Source of the DNA: Spiroplasma endosymbiont of Crioceris asparagi
Lineage (GTDB): Bacteria; Bacillota_I; Bacilli_A; Mycoplasmatales; Mycoplasmataceae
Direction of reading: 5' to 3'
DNA length: 64,000 bases
Assembly (NCBI RefSeq): GCF_964020035.1
Contig: NZ_OZ026475.1
Location: 558,001-622,000, forward strand
Made by a program: the position numbers and the translations under genes. Of this stretch, positions 1,726-28,685 are shown in pieces; positions within the stretch are counted from its first letter, which is position 1, and each line of letters opens with the position of its first letter. A model generated the notes under the pieces. The model was given only the letters and a program-made list of their open reading frames with translations. It searched no databases and was not told the origin of the DNA.

Positions 1726-4700
1726 TTACTCACTTAATGTTCCAGAAATAGTTTTTTCTCCAACAATTGTGTATCCTTTATTAGCACTCAATTGAAGAGT
1801 TCACGTGTCTCCTTCAATTGAATAACTTATTTTAAGTGAATCTTTATATTGTTTTATAATATATTCAAATGTTTCTCCTAAATAATCCATTTTATCTTGA
1901 TCATTATAGCTTCATTTTTCTACTAGTGGTAAATTTGATCATTTTTGATCTATCAATTCAGTTGCGAATTTTTTAACTTCGTCTGAGTTAATATTATTAA
2001 TTTTGAAATTTACTTTTCCACTAACTTTTTTATTGTATATTGCTTCTTTAGATTGTATTTCACCACCATCAACAATATTTCCCCATCGTGGATCTGCATA
2101 ACCAACATAATTTCCGTCACTATCAATTTTTAAATCTTCAATTTCTATTGTTGACTCACCAATGCCAGCTTTAATTAAAGAATCATGGATTGCTTTTTTA
2201 GCTTCTTTAATTGAACCATATGTTTTTCCTGCAGTTTCTTCGTCAATTATTTTTTGAATGTCTTTAATGTTATAGTGAACACGACCATCGACAGTTGTTT
2301 TTCCTTTTAATGATCCATCATCATCTAATTTATATCCAGGTTTGGCAACAGCTTTTCCTGTATATGTTGCAACATCATCATTAACAGTAATAGTTACAGT
2401 AATAGTTACTACATCATTATCAACAGCTTCAATTGCTTTTTCCGCATCATCTTCTGTTTTAAATCCTCTGTCTGCAAGTGCTTTATCAATGTCTGATTGA
2501 ATATCTTTAGTATGAATTAATTTCCTATCATCAATTGTTACATTACCACTTAGTTGACCAGTGCCATCAAGTGTGAATCCTTTTTGAGCAACGGCTGTTC
2601 CGGTGTATGTTCCATCTTTATTAACAGTTACAGTAATTTTTACTTTATCTTTGTCAACAGCTTCAATTGCTTTTTTAGCATCTGCTGGATTGTCAAATGT
2701 TTTTCCATTAATTGCTTTATTAATATCTGCTTGTACTTCTACGGTTGAAATATGTGTATTTGGATCAATTGTTACTTTTCCTTTTAATACACCATCACCA
2801 TCAAGTGCATAGTTACCTATAGCAACGGCTTTTCCGGTGTATGTTCCATTTTCATTAACTTTTACAGTAATTTTTACTTCATTACTATCAACCGCTTGAA
2901 TTGTAGTTGTAGCTTCAGCTGATGTTTTAAATGTTTTTCCATTAATTGCTTTATTAATATCTGCTTGTACATCTACAGTTGAAATGTGAGTTTTTGGATC
3001 AATTGTTACTTTTCCGCTTAACTGACCATTACCCTCAAGTATAAATTCAGGTTTTGCAGTTACTGTTCCGGTGTATGTTCCATCATCATTAACAGTTACA
3101 GTAATTATTGCTTTATCATTATCAACCGCTTGAATTGCAGTTGTAGCTTCAGCTGATGTTTTAAATGTTTTTCCATTAACTGCATCGTTAATGTCTTTTT
3201 GTACATTTGCAGTTTTAACAGAAGGTTTTTTGTTTAATATTACTTTTCCTGTTATTGATTGATTATGAGTAATTATATATCCTGGTTTTGCAGTTGCTGC
3301 TCCGGTTATATTACCATCATTATCAATTTTTAAATCAAATGTTGCAGCAACATTGTTGGAAAAATCTTTCATAATAGCACTTTGAGCGGCTGCGCCAGAA
3401 TTAAATTTATTATTATTCTTTGCTATTCATTCATCAATAAATTTTTTTATTTGTTCAAAATCAACAGTTATAGCTTGTGTAATATTTACACGACCACTTA
3501 ATTGATTACCATCATCAAGTGTATAACCATCATTTGCCTTTGCTGTTCCAGAATATGATCCATCTTCTTTAACAGCTACAGTAATTTTAACTTCTGTAGT
3601 ATCTACTCCCTCAATAACTTTTTTAACTTCATCAGATGAATAGAATGTTTTTCCAGCAAGAGCTGCATCAATGTCTTTTTTAACTTTATTAATACTAATA
3701 TGATTTGAATCATCAATTGCGTTTGCTACTGAGAAAGTAAGTGTTGTATCTTTACTTACTTTATATTTTTTGTCATCAAAACTAATTGTAATATCTGCAG
3801 TAGTTTTAGTTTCAGCATTTTGAGTTGCTGTAACAGTAATTATATTTTTTCCATCTTTTTTAAGACTTGTTACTATTTTAGATTCAACAGTTGATTGTAA
3901 ATCTACTGATTTAATTTTTTGAATTTTTTGAATTGAAACAATAGTGTCTTTTACACCTTGAGTAATATCTTCTCTAGTGTCAATATTTACTGTACCATGC
4001 ACTTGATTACCATCAATAAGATTATAATGATCTTTTGCAGTTGCAGTTGCAGTAAATGATTTTCCATCTTTATCAAATATTACATCACTAATTGTAACTT
4101 CTGTAGTATCTGCCCCAACGATTGCTGCTATTGCAGCATCTTTAGAATCAAATTTTTGATCTTTAACTGCTGAATCAACTTTTGCTTGAACATCTGCAAT
4201 GTGAACAATTGTTCTTGTATCAATTGCGTTTGCTACTGAGAAAGTAAGTTGAACTTTAGATTCATCAACTTTATATTTAGTTTTATCAAAACTAATTGTA
4301 ATATCTGCAGTAGTATCAGTTGATTTATTTTGAGTTGCATTAACAGTAATTATATTTTTTCCATCTTTTTTAAGACTTGTTACTATTTTAGATTCAGCTG
4401 TTTTTTGTAAATCTTTTAATTGAATTTGTTGAATTTGTTGAATTGAAGCAATAGTGTCTTTTACACCTTGAGTAATATCTTCTCTAGTGTCAATATTTAC
4501 TTTACCATGTAAGTCAGGACCATCAACAAGATTATAATGATCTTTTGCAGTTGCAGTTGCAGTATAATTTCCGTCATTGTCAAATGTTACATTACTAATT
4601 GTAACTTCTTGAGTATCTGCACCAATGATTGCTGCACTAGCTTTTTCTTGAGAATCAAATGTTTGATTTTTAACTGCTGAATCAACTTTTGCTTGAACAT

Positions 4701-6609
4701 CTGCAATGTGAACAATTGTTCTTGTATCAATTGCGTTTGCTACTGAGAAAGTAAGTTGAACTTTAGATTCATCAACTTTATATTTTTTGACATCAAAAGT
4801 AATTTCAATATCTGCAGTAGTGTTAATTTTTGAATCTTGAGTTGCTGTAACAGTAATTTCACCTTTAACAACTTTACTTATTTTTTCATCAACTGTTTTT
4901 TGTAATTGGTCTTTTGTAACACCATTAATTGTGTTAATTGCTGCTATAGTATCTTGAACGTCTTTAGTAATATCTGTTCTAGTGTCAATATTTACTTTAC
5001 CTTGTAGTTTATCACCACCATCAATAACAAAATTTGGTTTTGCTTCTACTTTAGCAGTATAATTTCCGCCTTTGTCAAATGTTACATTACTAATTGTAAC
5101 TCTTGCAGAATCAACGGCTTCAATAGTTGTTCTAGCTTCTGCTTCACTATTAAATGTATTTTTTGTTTTATTGTAAACTTCTTTTTGAATATCTGTTAAT
5201 TGAATTCTTGTTCTTGTGTCAATTGCGTTTACTACTGAGAAATTAAGTGCTTTTGCTGTGTCTTTGTTAATTATATATTTTTTGTCATCATAAGTAATTG
5301 TAATATCTGCAGTAGTGTTAGTTGTAGCATTTTGTTTTGCTGTAACGGTAATTTTATTTTGGTTATCTATATCTTTTAGACTTGCTGCTATTTTTGTTTC
5401 AACAGTTGATTGTAAATTTTCTAATCGAATTTGTTGAATTGTTTTAATTGCTGTTATAGTTTCATTTACACCTGAAGTAATATTTTCTCTATTGTCAATT
5501 AAAACTTTACCGTGTAGATCATGACCATCAAGTGTATATCCTGATTTTGCAGTTGCAGTTGCAGTATAGTATCCTTTGTCATCAATATTTTTAACAACAA
5601 TTGTTACTTTGTCATTGTCAACGTTTTGAATTGCTTGTTTAGCTAATTCGTTTGATTTATATGTTTGATCTTTTACTACTTTATCAACATCTTTTTGAAT
5701 TTTTTCAATTTTGATGTGTTCTGTTGCATCAATTGCATTTTCAACTGAGAAAGTAAGTGAAACACTAGGATCAACTTTATATATTTTTTCATCATAAGTA
5801 ATTGTAATATCTGCAGTAGTGTTAGTTGTAGCATTTTGTTTTGCTGTAACGGTAATTTTATTTTGGTTATCTTCATCTTTTAGACTTGGTGCTATTTTAG
5901 ACTCAACAGTTGATTGTAAATTATCTGGTGAAACATTATTAATTTTGTTAATTTCTTTTATAGTGTCTTTTACACCTTGAGTAATATTTTCTCTAGTATC
6001 AATATTTATTGAATCACCAAAATCGTATGTTGGAGATCCATCAATTGTGAATCCATTATCAGCTGTTGCTGTTACACTATATTTTTTTGAATTATCATCA
6101 ATATTGGCACTAGTAATTTTATATCCCTTACCATGAATACCTTTTATTTTATTCAACGCATCATCGTGTGATGAAAATAGTTGTTTTGCAACTTCATCAA
6201 CTTTATTTTTAATTGTTGTTCTTGCAATATTTATATCTTCTTTTTTAACTTTATTTTGCACAATAAATTCAAGTTGTGTTCCCGGTTTTACTGTATAACC
6301 AGATTTTAAATTTAATTTAATTCATGCATCTGGCATAATTTCAATTGGTTTAATTGATAAATCTGCTTCTTTTGAAAGAAGATTACCAACTCCATCTTTT
6401 GATATTATATCTTGAATTGCTTCATTTGGTCTGTTAGGATAAATAATTAAATTGTTATCTTTTTTAACATTTTCAATAAACTGATTAACTTCATTTGTTA
6501 TATCTTTTTCGTTTGAACCTTTTTTTGTAAAAGCTGTCATACCAACTGTTGTGGCTGTTACAACCCCAATAAATCCAATTAAACTTAATAATGTTAATAA
6601 TTTTTTCAT
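1726..6609 (-). CDS. Giant modular exported repeat protein, 1627 aa, no lipobox Cys
   Basis: One continuous frame when TGA is Trp. The start has an AGGAG site. An N-terminal signal helix (MKKLLTLLSLIGFIGVVTA) is followed by a head domain shared with the neighbour at 7355-10372 (both have VNxFxxNxK, LSIKxxxMxxDAW, PGTQLxFI). However, the lipobox Cys of the neighbour is absent, so this protein is either secreted or kept by an uncleaved helix. Residues about 208-1046 alternate two modules five times: B (about 90 aa, NTTADITITYD and TFSVxNAID signatures) and A (about 78 aa, IQKDVD...YTGTVTAKxGYxLDG signature). About six further A modules follow to residue 1545, then a degenerate tail. Repeating alpha-helix plus beta-hairpin modules suggest a long surface stalk, adhesin or shield; function is inferred only. 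Confidence 0.9.
3472..5988 (-). repeat. Five B+A supermodules (about 507 bp each) inside the giant gene
   Basis: Type B and type A protein modules alternate B1-A1-B2-A2-B3-A3-B4-A4-B5-A5. At DNA level the A3/B4 and A4/B5 boundaries keep a perfect match of over 100 bp at about 4165-4278 and 4672-4785. The offset is 507 bp, exactly one B+A supermodule of 169 codons. This shows recent duplication or gene conversion of whole supermodules. Confidence 0.85.
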
Positions 6610-6699: not shown

Positions 6700-6730
6700 C
6701 CAAAAAAACACTCTTATGTGTTTGATTTTT
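6700..6730. terminator. Terminator after the 136-aa lipoprotein
   Basis: AAACAC/GTGTTT stem with a 6-nt loop, flanked by A and T runs. It starts at the stop codon of the 6729-7139 lipoprotein and precedes the giant gene start. Confidence 0.65.
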
Positions 6731-7139
6731 ATTTAAATATGTTACTTATTGTAAATTTTAGTAAATTAGTATGTTCAACTTTATAACCTTGATTTACAGT
6801 CAAAGTAACGATAACTCCTTTGGGATTTTTTTTAGTGTCTTCTTTTTGAATTGATGATATAGTTAATTCCTTTGAAAGATCAGAACTAAGCATTTTAGTT
6901 AGTTTTTCTTTCAGTTCAGAAGATGAACTCATTTTTTGAATTTTATTTTCGGGAGCTAAAAAAAATTTTTTTGCTTCATCAATAAACTCATTAAGTGCTC
7001 TTTCATCAATTACAACAATATCATTCTTATGTTTATCTGAACTAGATTTACCATGCCCACAAGATACAAGAAAACTAGAACTGCTAGTAGCAATTCCAAT
7101 AAGTCCGATTGCACCAAACAAACTTAAAATTTTTTTCAT
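6729..7139 (-). CDS. Small lipoprotein, 136 aa
   Basis: The signal peptide MKKILSLFGAIGLIGIATSS is followed by a lipobox (FLVSCGHG), so the mature protein should be diacylated at Cys and held on the outer face of the membrane. The ATG at 7139 is preceded by AGGAG. The mature region of about 108 residues has an N-terminal helical part (FIDEAKKFF) and a C-terminal beta part (VIVTLTVNQGYKVEHTNLLKF). The beta part resembles the head domain of the two giant neighbours (GYTVKPGTQLEF, GYMVRPGTQLDF). It therefore looks like a stand-alone head domain without the repeat stalk. It lies between the two giant genes with its own terminator and a probable promoter at 7278-7306. Confidence 0.85.
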   Translation of the reverse strand: MKKILSLFGAIGLIGIATSSSSFLVSCGHGKSSSDKHKNDIVVIDERALNEFIDEAKKFFLAPENKIQKMSSSSELKEKLTKMLSSDLSKELTISSIQKEDTKKNPKGVIVTLTVNQGYKVEHTNLLKFTISNIFK

Positions 7140-7354: not shown

Positions 7355-10300
7355 TTATATAAAACTTCCGGCCATAGTTGTTAAATTATCTAGTGTATAC
7401 CCTTCTTTTGCTTTAAAATCTAAAGTTCAAGTTGCTTTACTTTCATTAATATGCATTACAATATCTATGCTTTTTTCATATTCTTCCTGAACTGAGGCAA
7501 TAGCCATTGAAAAACCAACAATAATTCCTGTTCTCATATTTTTATCATTTCAGTTTCCCATATTTTTAAATCTATTAGCTATTTTTTGAACTTTTTCCCT
7601 TACTTCATTACCATCAATATGGGTGGTGGTGTCAAGGTGAACTTTTCCAGAAATTGAGTTACCCCCTTCAAGTGTGTAGCCTGATTTAGCAGTGACAGTT
7701 GCTTTATAACTACCATCAGCTTTAACTTCGTTTACAACAATTGTTACTTTATTATCGTCAACACTTTGAATTGCAGATTTAACTCCATCAACTGAAGTAT
7801 AAGTTTTACCATCTACTTCTTTATCGACATCTTTTTGAATATCTGAAATATTAATATGGGTGGTGGTGTCAAGGTGAACTTTTCCAGAAATTGAGTTACC
7901 CCCTTCAAGTGTATATCCTGATTTAGCAGAAACTGTTCCGGTATAACTACCATCAGCTTTAACTTCATTTACAACAATTGCTACTTTGTTATTGTCGACA
8001 CTTTGAATTGCAGATTTAACTCCATCAACTGAAGTATAGGTTACACCATCAACTTTTTTATCAACATCTTTTTGAATTTGGGAAATGTTGATGTGAGTGG
8101 TGGTGTCAAGGTGAACTTTTCCAGAGATTGAACTACCACCATCAAGTGTGTAGCCTGATTTGGCGGTGACAGTTCCGGTATAACTACCATCAGCTTTAAC
8201 TTCATTTACAACAATTGTTACTTTGTCATTGTCGACACTTTGAATTGCAGATTTAACTCCATCAACTGAAGTGTAGGTTACACCATCAACTTTTTTATCA
8301 ATATCTTTTTGAATATCTGAAATGTTGATGTGAGTGGTAGTGTCAAGGTGAACTTTTCCAGAGATTGAACTACCACCATCAAGTGTGTAGCCTGATTTGG
8401 CAGAAACTGCTCCGGTATAACTACCATCAGCTTTAACTTCATTTACAACAATTGTTACTTTGTCATTGTCGACACTTTGAATTGCAGATTTAATATCATT
8501 AACTGAAGTATAGGTTACACCATCAACTTTTTTATCAACATCTTTTTGAATTTGGGAAATGTTGATGTGAGTGGTGGTGTCAAGGTGAACTTTTCCAGAG
8601 ATTGAACTACCACCATCAAGTGTGTAGCCTGATTTGGCGGTGACAGTTCCGGTATAAATACCATCAGCTTTAACTTCATTTACAACAATTGTTACTTTGT
8701 CATTGTCGACACTTTGAATTGCAGATTTAACTCCATCAACTGAAGTGTAGGTTACACCATCAACTTTTTTATCAATATCTTTTTGAATTTGGGAAATGTT
8801 GATGTGAGTGGTGGTGTCAAGGTGAACTTTTCCAGAAATTAAACTACCACCATCAAGTGTGTAGCCTGATTTGGCGGTGACAGTTCCGGTATAACTACCA
8901 TCAGCTTTAACTTCATTTACAACAATTGTTACTTTGTCATTGTCGACACTTTGAATTGCAGATTTAACTCCATCAACTGAAGTGTAGGTTACACCATCAA
9001 CTTTTTTATCAATATCTTTTTGAATATCTGAAATGTTGATGTGAGTGGTAGTGTCAAGGTGAACTTTTCCAGAGATTGAACTACCACCATCAAGTGTGTA
9101 GCCTGATTTGGCAGAAACTGCTCCGGTATAACTACCATCAGCTTTAACTTCATTTACAACAATTGTTACTTTGTCATTGTCGACACTTTGAATTGCAGAT
9201 TTAATATCATTAACTGAAGTATAGGTTTTGTCTTTTGTTTTTTTATCAATATCTTTTTGAATATCTGAAATGCTGATGTGAGTTGTGGTGTCAAGGTAGA
9301 CTTTTCCAGAAATTGAATTACCGCCATCAAGTGTGTATCCCAATTTGGCAGAAACTGTTCCGGTATAACTACCGTCGGCTTCAATTTTACTTACAACAAT
9401 TTTTACTTTATTATCATCAACACTTTCAATTGCGGATTTAACTTTTGCAACTGAAGTATATGTTTTGTCTTTTGTCTTTTTATCAATATCTTTTTGAATA
9501 TCTGAAATGGTGATATGGATAGAGGTATCAAGGTGAACTTTTCCAGAGATTGAGTTACCACCATCAATTGTATATCCTGGTTCTGCAGTAACAGTTCCAC
9601 TATAAACACCATCTTCTTTAACTTCGTTTACAACGATAATTAATTTATCACTATCAACAATTTCAATTGAAGATTTTACTGAAGCAACCGAATTATAGGT
9701 TTTGCCCTTCACTTTTTCATTAACATCTTTTTGAATTTGGGAAATGTTGATGTGAGTTGTTGCATCAATTTTAATAGATCCAGAAATTATAACTTTTAAT
9801 TCTCCATCAATAGTAAACCAATTTGTTGCATTAATGGTTGCGCGATATGATTTTAGATCTGGTGATATTTCTACTGAATTTTTTTGCACTTTTCATCCAT
9901 TACCACTTTTACTTTCTATTGCTTTTATTGCAAAATCTTTATTTTTAAAATTTGTTTTAGGGTTAGCAACTTCATCTAAATCTTTTTTAATTAAAGATTT
10001 TTTGATATTTTTTAAAACATCCAAAGCGATAAAGTCTAATTGTGTTCCTGGTCTTACCATGTAACCATCTTTTAATTTTATTTCGATTCATGCATCTTTT
10101 GGCAACATTTTAACTTGTTTTATTGATAAATTTGCTGGCTTTAAAATAAATTGAGATTGAAAATTTAAAATTTTTTTTAACTTTTCATCGCTATCTTTTG
10201 TTGTTGAATTTAAAGCTTTGGCATTCTTAACAAAATTATTTACATCTTCTGTTACATCTTTATTTTTACTGACTTTTGATTTTTCATTTCCACAAGAAAC

Positions 10301-10372
10301 AATATTTGCCGTTACAGCAGATGTTATTCCAACAAATCCCAATAAACTTAATAAGGTTAATAATTTTTTCAT
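7355..10372 (-). CDS. Large tandem-repeat lipoprotein, 1005 aa
   Basis: The ATG at 10372 follows a strong AAGGGGG site. The signal peptide with lipobox (TANIVSCGNEK) predicts a membrane-anchored surface lipoprotein. Residues about 30-200 form the head shared with the 1627-aa neighbour. Residues 207-917 are nine tandem copies of a 79-residue module (consensus pieces HINISDIQKDIDKK, KSAIQSVDNDKVTIVVNEV, YTGTVTAKSGYTLDGG, SISGKVHLDTTT). The tail is a degenerate copy. Each module predicts one helix followed by beta strands, giving an extended rod. Copies 3-8 are almost identical, so copy number is probably unstable. No enzymatic motif is seen. Likely role, by inference: adhesion or surface shielding with size variation. 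Confidence 0.92.
7622..9754 (-). repeat. Nine tandem 237-bp repeats with a 711-bp higher-order unit
   Basis: The motif gtgtcaaggtg recurs at 8103, 8340, 8577 and 8814, giving a period of 237 bp (79 codons). On top of this, variants recur every third copy: cagaaactgctcc occurs at 8401 and 9112, exactly 711 bp apart, and the SVNDIK/GAVSAK variants mark copies 3 and 6. A three-copy block was therefore duplicated as a unit. Outer copies (1, 2 and 9) are more diverged than the central ones. Confidence 0.95.
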
Positions 10373-22769: not shown

Positions 22770-25004
22770 TTAGTTTTGAAGTTTAAAAATTAAAGCCTTA
22801 GGATAAAGTCATAACTCTTTTCCGCTTTTTATAAAAGTATCATCTTCTATTTTTTTACGAATACATACATATTTCATATTTTGAAAGTCAGCATTTGAAT
22901 TTGGTCAATTCAAAATAGTACTATTTAATTTATTAAAATTTACTGTTCCATCTTTTCTTAATAAATTATCACATGAAATAAAATCCATTTGAGCTTCACG
23001 ATTAACTTTTTTTAAATCATCATATAGTCAAATTTTATCATTTCCTTCATATTCAGATATTCCACCATTGACTCCTAGAGCATTATAAAATAAAGATTTA
23101 AGTTCATCATCACTTTTTGATAATGATGATTTAATTTGTTTTAACAATGAACTATAATCATTTACTGCTTTTATATTAAAATTTTTACTTAAGTCAAAAT
23201 AATTAGTTTTTAAATTATTACTAATTTTATTACGATTAATAATAATTTTTATTGGGTCAACATCTTTTTTATAATAAAAAGAATTATCTTTTGCATTTAT
23301 ATAAATTGTAACTTGTTCCTTATTTATATCTATTTTTAAAAAATCTACTTGTGTTCACATTATGTGTTTGTAATTTTCTTTAACTATATTAATAAAATCT
23401 TTTGAACTAGTTCTTTTACTATACTCATCATTATAAATATCAATTTCATTAGACTTTCCATATCATGGTTTTTGTGAATATTCATCATTTATTTTATTTA
23501 AGTAACTTGAAAGATATTTTTTATTATATGATTTTTTTCAATAAAACTCGTTGTTTTTAAATAAATCATCTTTGTATAAATCTGTTTTATCTGCTTGATT
23601 ATCAATAATGTCTTTTTTGGAGATAAAATTGAATTTATTGTTACTATTATCGTTTTCTGTTTTAACAACTCTTTTGTATGTTTTAATTTCATCTAATATT
23701 GGTAATGCACAACCATTAATATCAAATAGACCTTTATTCCATCATGTACTTCCCAATTTATAGCCATTGTGATTATTATTTCTTAAATAATCAACTCCTT
23801 CATAAGTTGCTCAGCTTGTTTTTCCTTTTAATAATCATCCTGGTTCTCATCAATAATAACCAACCTTACTATTTGGCAATGCTTTAGAAATTGTATTTAG
23901 GAAAACATTAAATAAATACACTGATCCTTCAGAACTAACTGGGGCTCTTTTAATTGAATCTGCATATGACATTTGATCATTAGAAGTATCACCAATGTAA
24001 GAATCATTAGTGGCAGCATAAACTGAAGAATACTCCATTATTAAAGTGTCTTTATTATAGTTACTTTTAATATATCTCATTGAGTCAAATAAATCATCCA
24101 TATCATGTCAATTTCACTGGGGATAAAATGAAAGTCCAATATAATCAACATTTTTAAATACATATTTATTTTCCATAAATTTATTTAATGGATATTTAAA
24201 GCTTTTAATATTTGAACAATCTAGATGTATTATTGTTTTAATTGCCAGCTTATTCTTTATATCAAAATTTTTGACAGCTTTTATTCCATTTTCTAAATAA
24301 CTTTGGGTTTCTCCAAAATTATATTTGCTATTTGTTCACAAAAAGCCTCTGCTTATTTCATTACCAATTTGCACTGCTGATATATATTGAGAAAGTCCAA
24401 CTTTAGTGAAATTTTCTAATACTTGATTAGTATACTCATAAACAAGTTTTGCAATTTCGGTAGCTGACTTGTGTTCTCATTTTTTTGGTGGTTTTTGAAC
24501 TTGGGGATCTGCTCAAAAATCAGAATATTGAAAATCAATAAAAAAATCGTGTATACCCTCTTTTTTTGCTTGCTTCATAATTCAAATGTCAGTGTCAATA
24601 TCGTTATGACCACCACCATATGAATTACCTTTGTCGTCATATGGATCATTTCATAACCTTAGTCTTATGGAATTAACACCCTTTCATTTTAGAATTTTAA
24701 AAAAATTATCATATTTTAAAGTTCCATTTTCGTCAATATATGAGTATAAATTTTGATTAATATAGTTTTCTTGTTCTTCATCAATATCTTTATATCTATA
24801 TTTTGAATAGCCTTTTTCAAATAAAAAATTTTCCACTACTTCAGCATAACTCGATGTATCACAGCCATTTATTATGTCGTTATTTTTAGCAATTACTTTA
24901 CTTCTATGATTATCTTCTTTATGAGAAGAACAATTTATTAATGCAATAAATGGACATAAAGTTAAAATTATTAATAGTGTTATTTTTAATATTTTGTTCA
25001 TCAT
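22770..25004 (-). CDS. Secreted GH53 endo-beta-1,4-galactanase lipoprotein
   Basis: 744 residues. The signal peptide with lipobox (LCPFIALINCSSH) places the enzyme on the cell surface. Residues about 110-330 are a clear GH53 barrel: SIRLRLWNDPYDDKGNSYGG, then DFQYSDFWADPQVQKPPKKW, acid/base Glu near 216 in AVQIGNEIS, GLSFYPQW, nucleophile Glu near 324 in LIMEYSS, and YYWWEPGWL. The family cleaves beta-1,4-galactan side chains of plant pectin (type I arabinogalactan). The remaining 330 residues are an unrecognised beta-rich and helical extension, absent from standard 340-420 aa GH53 enzymes. About 15 Trp are TGA. The ribosome site is poor, and a T16 tract lies 27 nt upstream of the ATG. Confidence 0.92.
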
Positions 25005-25136: not shown

Positions 25137-26363
25137 TTAACCTTTAATGAATAATATTTTGTAAATGCCATTTAAATTTTCAGATTCAAATTTTAGTTCT
25201 TCAATTGTGCTTCCTTTTGAAATTTTTTCAAAATCGTTTTTGTCAAATTTGGTTGTATTATTATTTCCATCACATCAAGAAAGATTTACAAAGTTACCAA
25301 TCGGTTTTGTATTATCTGTTGTATTAATATCACTTCAATTAAGCTTTCAAGTTGTTTTATCGGAATTGACTTGTTTTACTTCACTTTCTAATGCTGGGAA
25401 GTGAATTATTCTTAAATCATATTTTTTTAAATCATCATAGTCTTTTAAAGTTATTTTAAATGTTTTAGATTTTTGATCTTCTTGAATTAAATTTTTATTT
25501 GGATCATCTTTGCTGATTCAAGTCATATTTAAATCACGTTTAACAATAACTCTTAATGAATTTTTTAATTTTGTTTTTCCTTTTTCTGTTGGATTAAAGT
25601 CAAAATATGCAGTGTCTTTTTCAAGAATTATGTCTGTTGTTCAATTGTGACCCACTGCGTTCATATGTCGACTTCCAGCACCAACGGCAAAATCATTTTT
25701 TGCTGTATTGGTTGGATCTTCCAAATCAAATTCAATATCTTTAATTAGTTGTGATCTAACATCTTCAAATAATTGTCCATATGTTGTTGTTTTACCAATT
25801 TTGACAACAACTTTAGATAAATCATCAGTTTTAATTTTAAAGGTTACTTCAACTGTACCAATAAATTTATTTGTATTTTTTACAGCAATAGTTGCTTTAT
25901 TGTTTTTTTCATCAACCGTTGCTTTAATGTCTTCTTTTGTTAATCCTGAATCTGGATTTTTAGTAATAACAGCAGCAATTATAGTTGCTTCTTTTGCATC
26001 ATCTAAATAACCTAATTCTTTATTTTTAATAATATCTGCCAAATTGTTAGATTTGATAGTAAAAGTTACTTCAACTGAACCAGTAAATTTATTTGTATCT
26101 ACTGGTGTAATTGTTGCTTTGTTTTTGGCTTTATCAATTTTTGCTTCAATATCTTCTTTTTTTAATCCTGAATCTAGATTTTTAGTAATAACAGCAGCAA
26201 TTATAGTTGCTTCTTTTGCATCATCTAAGGCACCTAATTTTGTATTTTTAATAAGTTTTGTTAAGTCTTTGACTAATTGCTTATCTTTACCACAAGAAAT
26301 AATTGTTACTGCTGATGTTGCAATCATGCCAAAAGAACCTAATAATCCTATTAGTTTTTTCAT
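25137..26363 (-). CDS. Repeat lipoprotein, 408 aa (two spiralin-like modules)
   Basis: The signal peptide MKKLIGLLGSFGMIATSAV is followed by lipobox IISCGKDK, and the RBS is AAAGGAAA. Residues about 32-170 hold two modules of about 70 aa with signatures LGxLDDAKEATIIAAVITKN, DSGLxKEDI and NKATI...KFxGxVEVTFxIK. The last 240 residues form a domain nearly identical to that of the next gene (TAYFDFNPTEKGKTKLKNSL, ESENLNGIYKILFIKG). Modules of this pattern are common in surface lipoproteins of the Spiroplasma/Mesoplasma group. Function is unknown; surface exposure is inferred. It is a paralogue, by duplication, of the gene at 26589-28685. Confidence 0.88.
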
Positions 26364-26588: not shown

Positions 26589-28685
26589 TTAACCTTTAAT
26601 GAATAATATTTTGTAAATGTCATTTAAATTTTCAGATTCAAATTTTAGTTCTTCAATTGTGCTTCCGCTTGCAACTTTATCAAAATCATCTTTTTTAAAA
26701 TTTTGATGTCCATCACTTCCATCACATCAAGAAAGATTTACAAAGTTACCAATCGGTTTTGTATTATCTGTTGTATTAATATCACTTCAATTAAGCTTTC
26801 AAGTAGTTTTATCGGAATTGGCTTGTTTTATTTCGCTTTCTAATGCCGGGAAGTGAATTATTCTTAAATCATATTTGTTTAAATCATCATATTCTTTTAA
26901 AATTATTTTAAATGTTTTAGATTTTTGATCTTCTTGAATTAAATTTTTATTTGGATCGTCTTTGCTAATTCAAGTCAAATTTAAATTGCGTTTAACAATA
27001 ACTCTTAATGAATTTTTTAATTTTGTTTTTCCTTTTTCTGTTGGATTAAAGTCAAAATATGCAGTGTCTTTTTCAAGAATTTTGTCTTTTCAAGAATGTC
27101 CAGATCCACCCAAATGTTGACTCATAGGAGTAACAAAGAAATCATTGTTTGTTATATTAGTTGGTTCATTACTGTTAAATACAACATCTTTAATTAATTG
27201 TGATTTAACATTCTCAAATAATTGAACGTATGTTGTGTTTTCATCAATATTAACAACAACTTTCGCCAAATCATTAGTTTTAATTTTAAAGGTCACTTCC
27301 GCTGAACCAATAAATTTATCTGTATTTTTTACAGCAATAGTTGCTTTATTGTTTTTTTCATCAACTTCTGCTTTAATATCTTCTTTTGTTAATCCTGAAT
27401 CTGGATTTTTAGCAACAACGGCAGCAATTACAGTTTCTGGTTTTGCATCATCTAAGGCACCTAAATATTTAATTTTAATAATATCTACTAAGTTTGGTTT
27501 GACTATGAAAGTTACTTCAACTTCTTCAATAAATTTAGTTGAATCAACTGCTGTAATAATTGCTTTATTGTTTTTTTCATCAACTTCCGCATCAATATCT
27601 TCTTTTGTTAATCCTGAATCTGGATTTTTAGCAATAACGGCAGCAATTACAGTTTCTGGTTTTGCATCATCTAAGGCACCTAATTTTGTATTTTTAATAA
27701 GTTTTGTTAGATTTGACTTAATATTGAAAATTACATCTACTGAACCAATAAAATTACTTGATTTTTTGGCAGTTATAGTTGCTGCGTTATTAAGTTCATC
27801 AATTTCTACCGTAATATCTTTACTTATTAATCCTGAATTGGGATTTTTAGCAAGGACAGCAGCAATTATTATATCTTGCTTTGCATAATCTAAAATCCCT
27901 AAATCTCTATTTTTGATAACTTTTAATAATTCTTGTTTGAGAGTAAAAGTTACACTTACTGATCCAATAAATTTACTTGATGTATTTGCAATAATTGTTG
28001 CCATATTATAATATTCATTAACTTCCGCCGTGATATCTTTATTGGTTAATCCTAAATTGGGATTATTTGCAATAACGGCGGCAATGATAATTTTGGGAGT
28101 TGCAAAATCTAACATCCCTAAATCTGTTTTTTTAATAACTTCTGATAATTTCGGTTTAATAGCGAAGATTACATCTACTGAACCGGTAAGTTTATTTTTA
28201 TCAGCTGAAATAATTGTTGCTTTTTTATTGCCTTCATCAACTATTGCCTTGATATCATCACTTGTTAATCCTGATTCTCAATTCTTATTTAGAACGGCTT
28301 TAATAATTGTTTCTGATTTTGCATCATCTAACGTTCCTAAATCTTTGTGTTTAATAAGATTTAATAAGTTTGGTTTAATGGTGAAAACCACATTAACTGA
28401 TCCAACAAATTTACTAGAATCAAATGCGGTAATATTTGCTATATTGTTGGTTGCATCAACAGTTGCTACAATATCATCTTTTGTTAATCCTGAATTTAAA
28501 TTTTTAATAAGCACAGCTGAAATAATTGTTTCTGATTTTGCATCTTCTAACATTCCTAATTCTTTGTTTATAATGAGTTTTGTTAGATCTTTAATCAATG
28601 CTTTGTCATTACCACAAGAAATAGTTGTTGCTATTGATGTTATCGCCATACCAAAAGAACCTAATAATCCTATTAGTTTTTTCAT
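26589..28685 (-). CDS. Repeat lipoprotein, 698 aa (six spiralin-like modules)
   Basis: The signal peptide is almost the same as in the 408-aa paralogue, with lipobox TISCGNDK. Residues about 32-460 comprise six 71-72-aa modules, each starting with a LIKxxxLGxLDDA helix and ending GSVxVxFxIK. The two C-terminal modules are most alike (KPETVIAAVxAKNPDSGLTK). The C-terminal 240 residues match the paralogue, including TTWKLNWSDINTTDNTKPIG with TGA-Trp. Difference in module number (six against two) is the main contrast between the two proteins. Surface-exposed, function unknown. Confidence 0.9.

Follow-up and report, generated by a model that had tools for sequence, protein, structure and literature searches.

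Analysis of a 64,000-bp stretch of DNA (the window, G000:C1:558001-622000 of a 701,400-bp genome in a single contig) identified a gene with nine tandem copies of a 237-bp unit. We consider it probable that this gene encodes a surface lipoprotein with a stalk of nine recombining units, and that the 711-bp spacing within the array was left by a two-copy duplication followed by a one-copy duplication.

Organization of the array gene

The gene occupies positions 7355-10372 of the minus strand, on which all features of the array described below also lie. It encodes a predicted lipoprotein of 1005 aa under genetic code 4, in which its four TGA codons specify Trp. Long open reading frames on the plus strand across the array were rejected as by-products of the stop-poor code. 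Inspection of the N-terminus, MKKLLTLLSLLGFVGITSAVTANIVSCGN, by eye revealed a lipoprotein-type signal peptide with a lipobox-like IVSC. The Vmc-like lipoprotein signal domain (NF045726) scored 17.1 bits against the protein, below its cut-off of 19.3 bits. We infer a surface location for the product, which would be anchored in the membrane of Spiroplasma by its N-terminal lipid. The only simple tract found 5′ of the gene is one A7 run located 355 bases before the start, and a TA tract is absent; thus this region gives no indication of a slipped-strand switch.

The nine units, each of 237 bp (79 aa), are located at 7622-9754, the first in gene order being 9518-9754. The preliminary description had reported nine 79-codon copies here, and both Tandem Repeats Finder (7623-9757, period 237, 9.0 copies, 89% matches, 0% indels) and a listing of the units confirmed this, all copies being in frame and free of indels. 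At the amino acid level adjacent units are 63, 80, 86, 96, 91, 91, 91 and 90% identical. The array is flanked by a diverged unit at either end. The N-terminal one (9755-10009) belongs to the same domain, with a match of the A1 profile at G000:C1:567755-568009 (E 3.3e-22); the 19 rows of that profile include this unit itself. The C-terminal cap (7358-7621) resembles a diverged unit and is also found at the C-terminus of a 1627-aa paralogue. If a lipid anchors the N-terminus, the cap would lie at the distal end; a domain search of the array protein recognised no functional or binding domain in it.

The paralogue (1726-6609, minus strand) shares the domain and is 34% identical to the array protein. 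Tandem copies of the domain follow one another in it every 234 bp, and in its N-terminal part the domain alternates with a second one to give a composite A+B repeat with a period of 507-510 bp. Both genes are clustered with that of a 136-aa lipoprotein (6729-7139, minus strand), which is related to the N-terminus of the array protein only (27% identity, E 4e-9). Elsewhere in the window two more repeat lipoproteins were found, at 25137-26363 and 26589-28685, with 222- and 219-bp units; the latter partly resembles the MAG1450 family (NF046007; 67 bits vs a cut-off of 425). At 22770-25004 lies a 744-aa lipoprotein-like open reading frame that, as read, resembles a glycoside hydrolase and may be an endo-galactanase.

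Mosaic structure and probable duplication history

Units in the centre of the array are more uniform than those at its ends, as had been described: copies 3, 5 and 6, numbered along the plus strand, differ at 2-6 of 237 sites, and the outermost copies 1, 8 and 9 differ from the rest at 26-62. The preliminary description had further stated that sequence variants recur in every third copy at 711 bp. An exact match at this offset is indeed present, but the recurrence does not run through the whole array. At offset 711 an exact run reaches 386 bp (8131-8516 = 8842-9227); the longest runs at offsets 237 and 474 are of 130 and 157 bp, respectively. The recurrence is restricted to copies 3 and 6, with two mismatches, and to the first two thirds of copies 4 and 7. 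Other pairs of copies at the same offset differ at 17 (2 and 5), 36 (1 and 4), 50 (5 and 8) and 53 (6 and 9) sites. Overall, the segment 8066-8516 is repeated 711 bp further on (8777-9227) with two mismatches in 451 bp, which is short of the 711 bp that a duplicated three-copy block would leave.

To reconstruct the history of the array, duplications were undone by Fitch-parsimony contraction from nine units to six with breakpoints left free. Removal of one one-unit and one two-unit event cost 3 substitutions, as against 31 for a single three-unit event. Three one-unit events cost 18, and the one-unit and two-unit events in the other order cost 14. In the best solution the latest event is a one-unit duplication of 237 bp at 8540-8788 (offset-237 match with 3 substitutions, junction zone of 12 bp), and the earlier one is a two-unit duplication of 474 bp at 8027-8516 (offset-474 match, junction zone of 16 bp). 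Once the one-unit event is undone, a perfect match of 490 bp (474 + 16) appears at offset 474, at a cost of 0. In the simplest history, then, 474 bp were duplicated first and 237 bp afterwards, and the 711-bp spacing most plausibly represents the sum of these two steps. It follows that changes in length are to be expected in steps of 237 or 474 bp and not in a special step of 711 bp. The recent duplication of a three-copy block proposed earlier found no support in this analysis, and the 711-bp higher-order unit was probably a misreading.

Shuffled orders of the units produced a run of at least 386 bp in 28 of 1000 cases; a contraction by one plus two units at a cost of 3 or less was never obtained (0 of 300), and a three-unit contraction at a cost of 31 or less was obtained twice in 1000. 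The order of units is therefore not random, and these results lend little weight to 711 bp as a unit in its own right.

A single recent three-copy (711-bp) duplication, partly overwritten later by gene conversion, is favoured by the longest exact match of the array, which lies at 711 bp. With conversion of about one unit it is also a history of two events. However, the tract of near-identity is too short for it, and the 31 mismatches of the best three-unit contraction are spread over 7803-8130, which would be the third unit. A coincidence would be needed in which the conversion tract erased nearly exactly that unit, and we regard this history as unlikely. Less likely again is a mosaic produced by gene conversion between units at unchanged copy number. 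Conversion would homogenise the central units as well, and it could have left the matching tracts at offsets 474 and 711. Nevertheless, the 490-bp match just exceeds two units, as predicted by tandem duplication and not by conversion, and copy number and period vary between the arrays of other species.

The least probable of the alternatives, in our estimate, is that the array is a mis-assembly in which a wrong number of copies was built from short reads. The exact repeat of 386 bp is longer than ordinary short reads, and in the draft genome of a relative, G034, contigs end at such an array (G034:C1:6-1790 and G034:C5:4-210, starting at bases 6 and 4 of the contigs, respectively), which suggests that these arrays break short-read assemblies. 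Against this, the genome studied here is in a single contig, all frames are intact, and the units carry private substitutions and form distinct mosaics.

Overall, the data support the earlier proposal that unequal recombination took place recently in a lipoprotein-like gene, the centre of which has been homogenised. Under the preferred history, a two-copy duplication and then a one-copy duplication, the high DNA identity among units would allow misaligned recombination to add or remove whole in-frame units. Through such gains and losses the stalk would lengthen or shorten and stay homogeneous in its middle. The genome contains an intact recA-family gene (486.7 bits vs a cut-off of 325.3), and the recombined units share the 12- and 16-bp junction zones. 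The sequence of the array would be compatible with unequal recombination as well as with replication slippage.

The 79-residue domain

Structure prediction for a single unit gave two helices and three strands (alpha-alpha-beta-beta-beta) with pLDDT 96.6 and pTM 0.84. In a model of three units the domains were as well folded (pLDDT 95.7), but the pTM of 0.66 leaves their arrangement relative to one another, and hence a rod shape, less firmly predicted. Each unit is confidently predicted to form a compact alpha-alpha-beta-beta-beta domain, and nine of these would make up the stalk in the middle of the protein. Between-unit dN/dS was 0.17-0.34 in seven of the eight pairs computed and 0.55 for units 3 and 5. 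These low values indicate that the units are kept as protein by purifying selection.

Searches of Pfam with single units reached no cut-off, the best E-value among all 19 units being 0.0028; the sole match of the first unit was to Bactofilin (16.3 bits vs a cut-off of 27.9). The whole protein gave matches above cut-off to DUF6972, DUF3447, Bactofilin and DUF1508, which were rejected as weak matches summed over the repeats. A sequence search of the PDB returned nothing significant. Neither Foldseek (best E 0.28) nor VIA-align (best match pantoate-beta-alanine ligase, Z 5.1, rmsd 2.9, 62 aligned) found a convincing structural match.

Distribution in related genomes

TypA of Spiroplasma sp. TIUS-1 shares 84% identity with the TypA encoded in the window. 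Together with genes that stay open under genetic code 4, this identifies the genome as that of a Spiroplasma close to TIUS-1. In TIUS-1 the array gene is absent directly after typA. Since TIUS-1 carries other genes after typA, the locus is variable between species. A TIUS-1 protein encoded near typA (L022 13164-14231), at the place taken by the array gene in the window, reads like a DUF285/BspA repeat protein. No relative was recovered when the genome contigs were scanned with the array protein, and a DNA search found no close nucleotide relative outside the genome of the window, outside matches being 24-43 bp long. The unit profile detected diverged versions of the domain in 13 of 60 genomes from the family, counting the one to which the window belongs; the same profile found no match in G001, a genome of the same genus.

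Arrays occur at eight of the loci that we read in other species; they comprise 3-8 copies, and their periods range over 228-291 bp. Several are nearly identical from copy to copy, those of G017, G015 and G031 include runs of identical units, and those of G020 and G078 show longer matches also at multiples of the unit. In G015 (L094, about 2300-3470), just after a lipoprotein array, a 282-bp unit is present in three copies, each with a TAA stop, an arrangement suggestive of the amplification of a unit with a nonsense codon. This indicates that expansion acts on DNA whether it is translated or not.

Relation to known repeat proteins

The best analogue of the array protein is the class of Periscope Proteins (SasG, Rib/alpha C, Sgo_0707), surface proteins with long tandem repeats of a folded domain (PMC8201768, PMC9704523). 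Their repeats are defined as exceeding 50 residues with at least 80% identity (PMC8201768); the unit of the array has 79 residues, seven of the eight adjacent pairs reach 80%, and it is folded in the prediction. Recombination between units identical in DNA is expected to alter the length of Periscope stalks (PMC8201768, PMC9704523), and the alpha C protein of group B streptococcus was reported to lose repeats, from nine to 1-4, under antibody in mice (PMC9704523). Periscope stalks are elongated rods that vary in repeat number among strains and bear a functional domain distally. By analogy with this class, the most likely function of the array is that of a surface stalk of adjustable length. 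There are also differences. Periscope Proteins are anchored by a C-terminal wall motif, whereas the array protein has a predicted N-terminal lipid, so that its C-terminus would be distal. No sequence relation was found between known Periscope stalk domains and the array unit, whose variation in number is a prediction.

Among mollicutes, Lmp1 of Mycoplasma hominis and Maa2 of M. arthritidis are size-variable lipoproteins. Another is the multiple banded antigen of Ureaplasma (PMC3637154). Like the array protein, these are lipoproteins of wall-less bacteria with in-frame tandem repeats; their variation has been observed, whereas that of the array protein among strains is predicted. The BspA/DUF285 (PARCEL) proteins of mollicutes are similar to the array protein in being repeat surface proteins in a variable locus, but their repeat, as read, is short and of the WDTSNVTNMSHMF type and differs from the 79-aa unit, to which Pfam DUF285 gave no match.

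The array protein probably represents an ordinary type of expandable stalk on the bacterial surface, made of a domain that is not itself in Pfam. The phenomenon being otherwise ordinary for bacterial surface proteins, the newer element is this widespread mollicute domain. The two-step history also illustrates that a striking higher-order spacing may arise from two smaller duplications. It is conceivable, although we put this forward tentatively and at somewhat less than even chances, that lipid-anchored surface stalks of variable length form a class particular to Spiroplasma and its relatives, in which arrays of the alpha-alpha-beta-beta-beta domain have been independently homogenised in many species of these insect-associated bacteria. 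With these findings, the bacteria that are likely to possess expandable surface stalks come to include a wall-less lineage associated with insects. Both the domain and the arrays that it forms offer possible typing markers and a possible system for surface variation in symbionts of hosts without antibodies.
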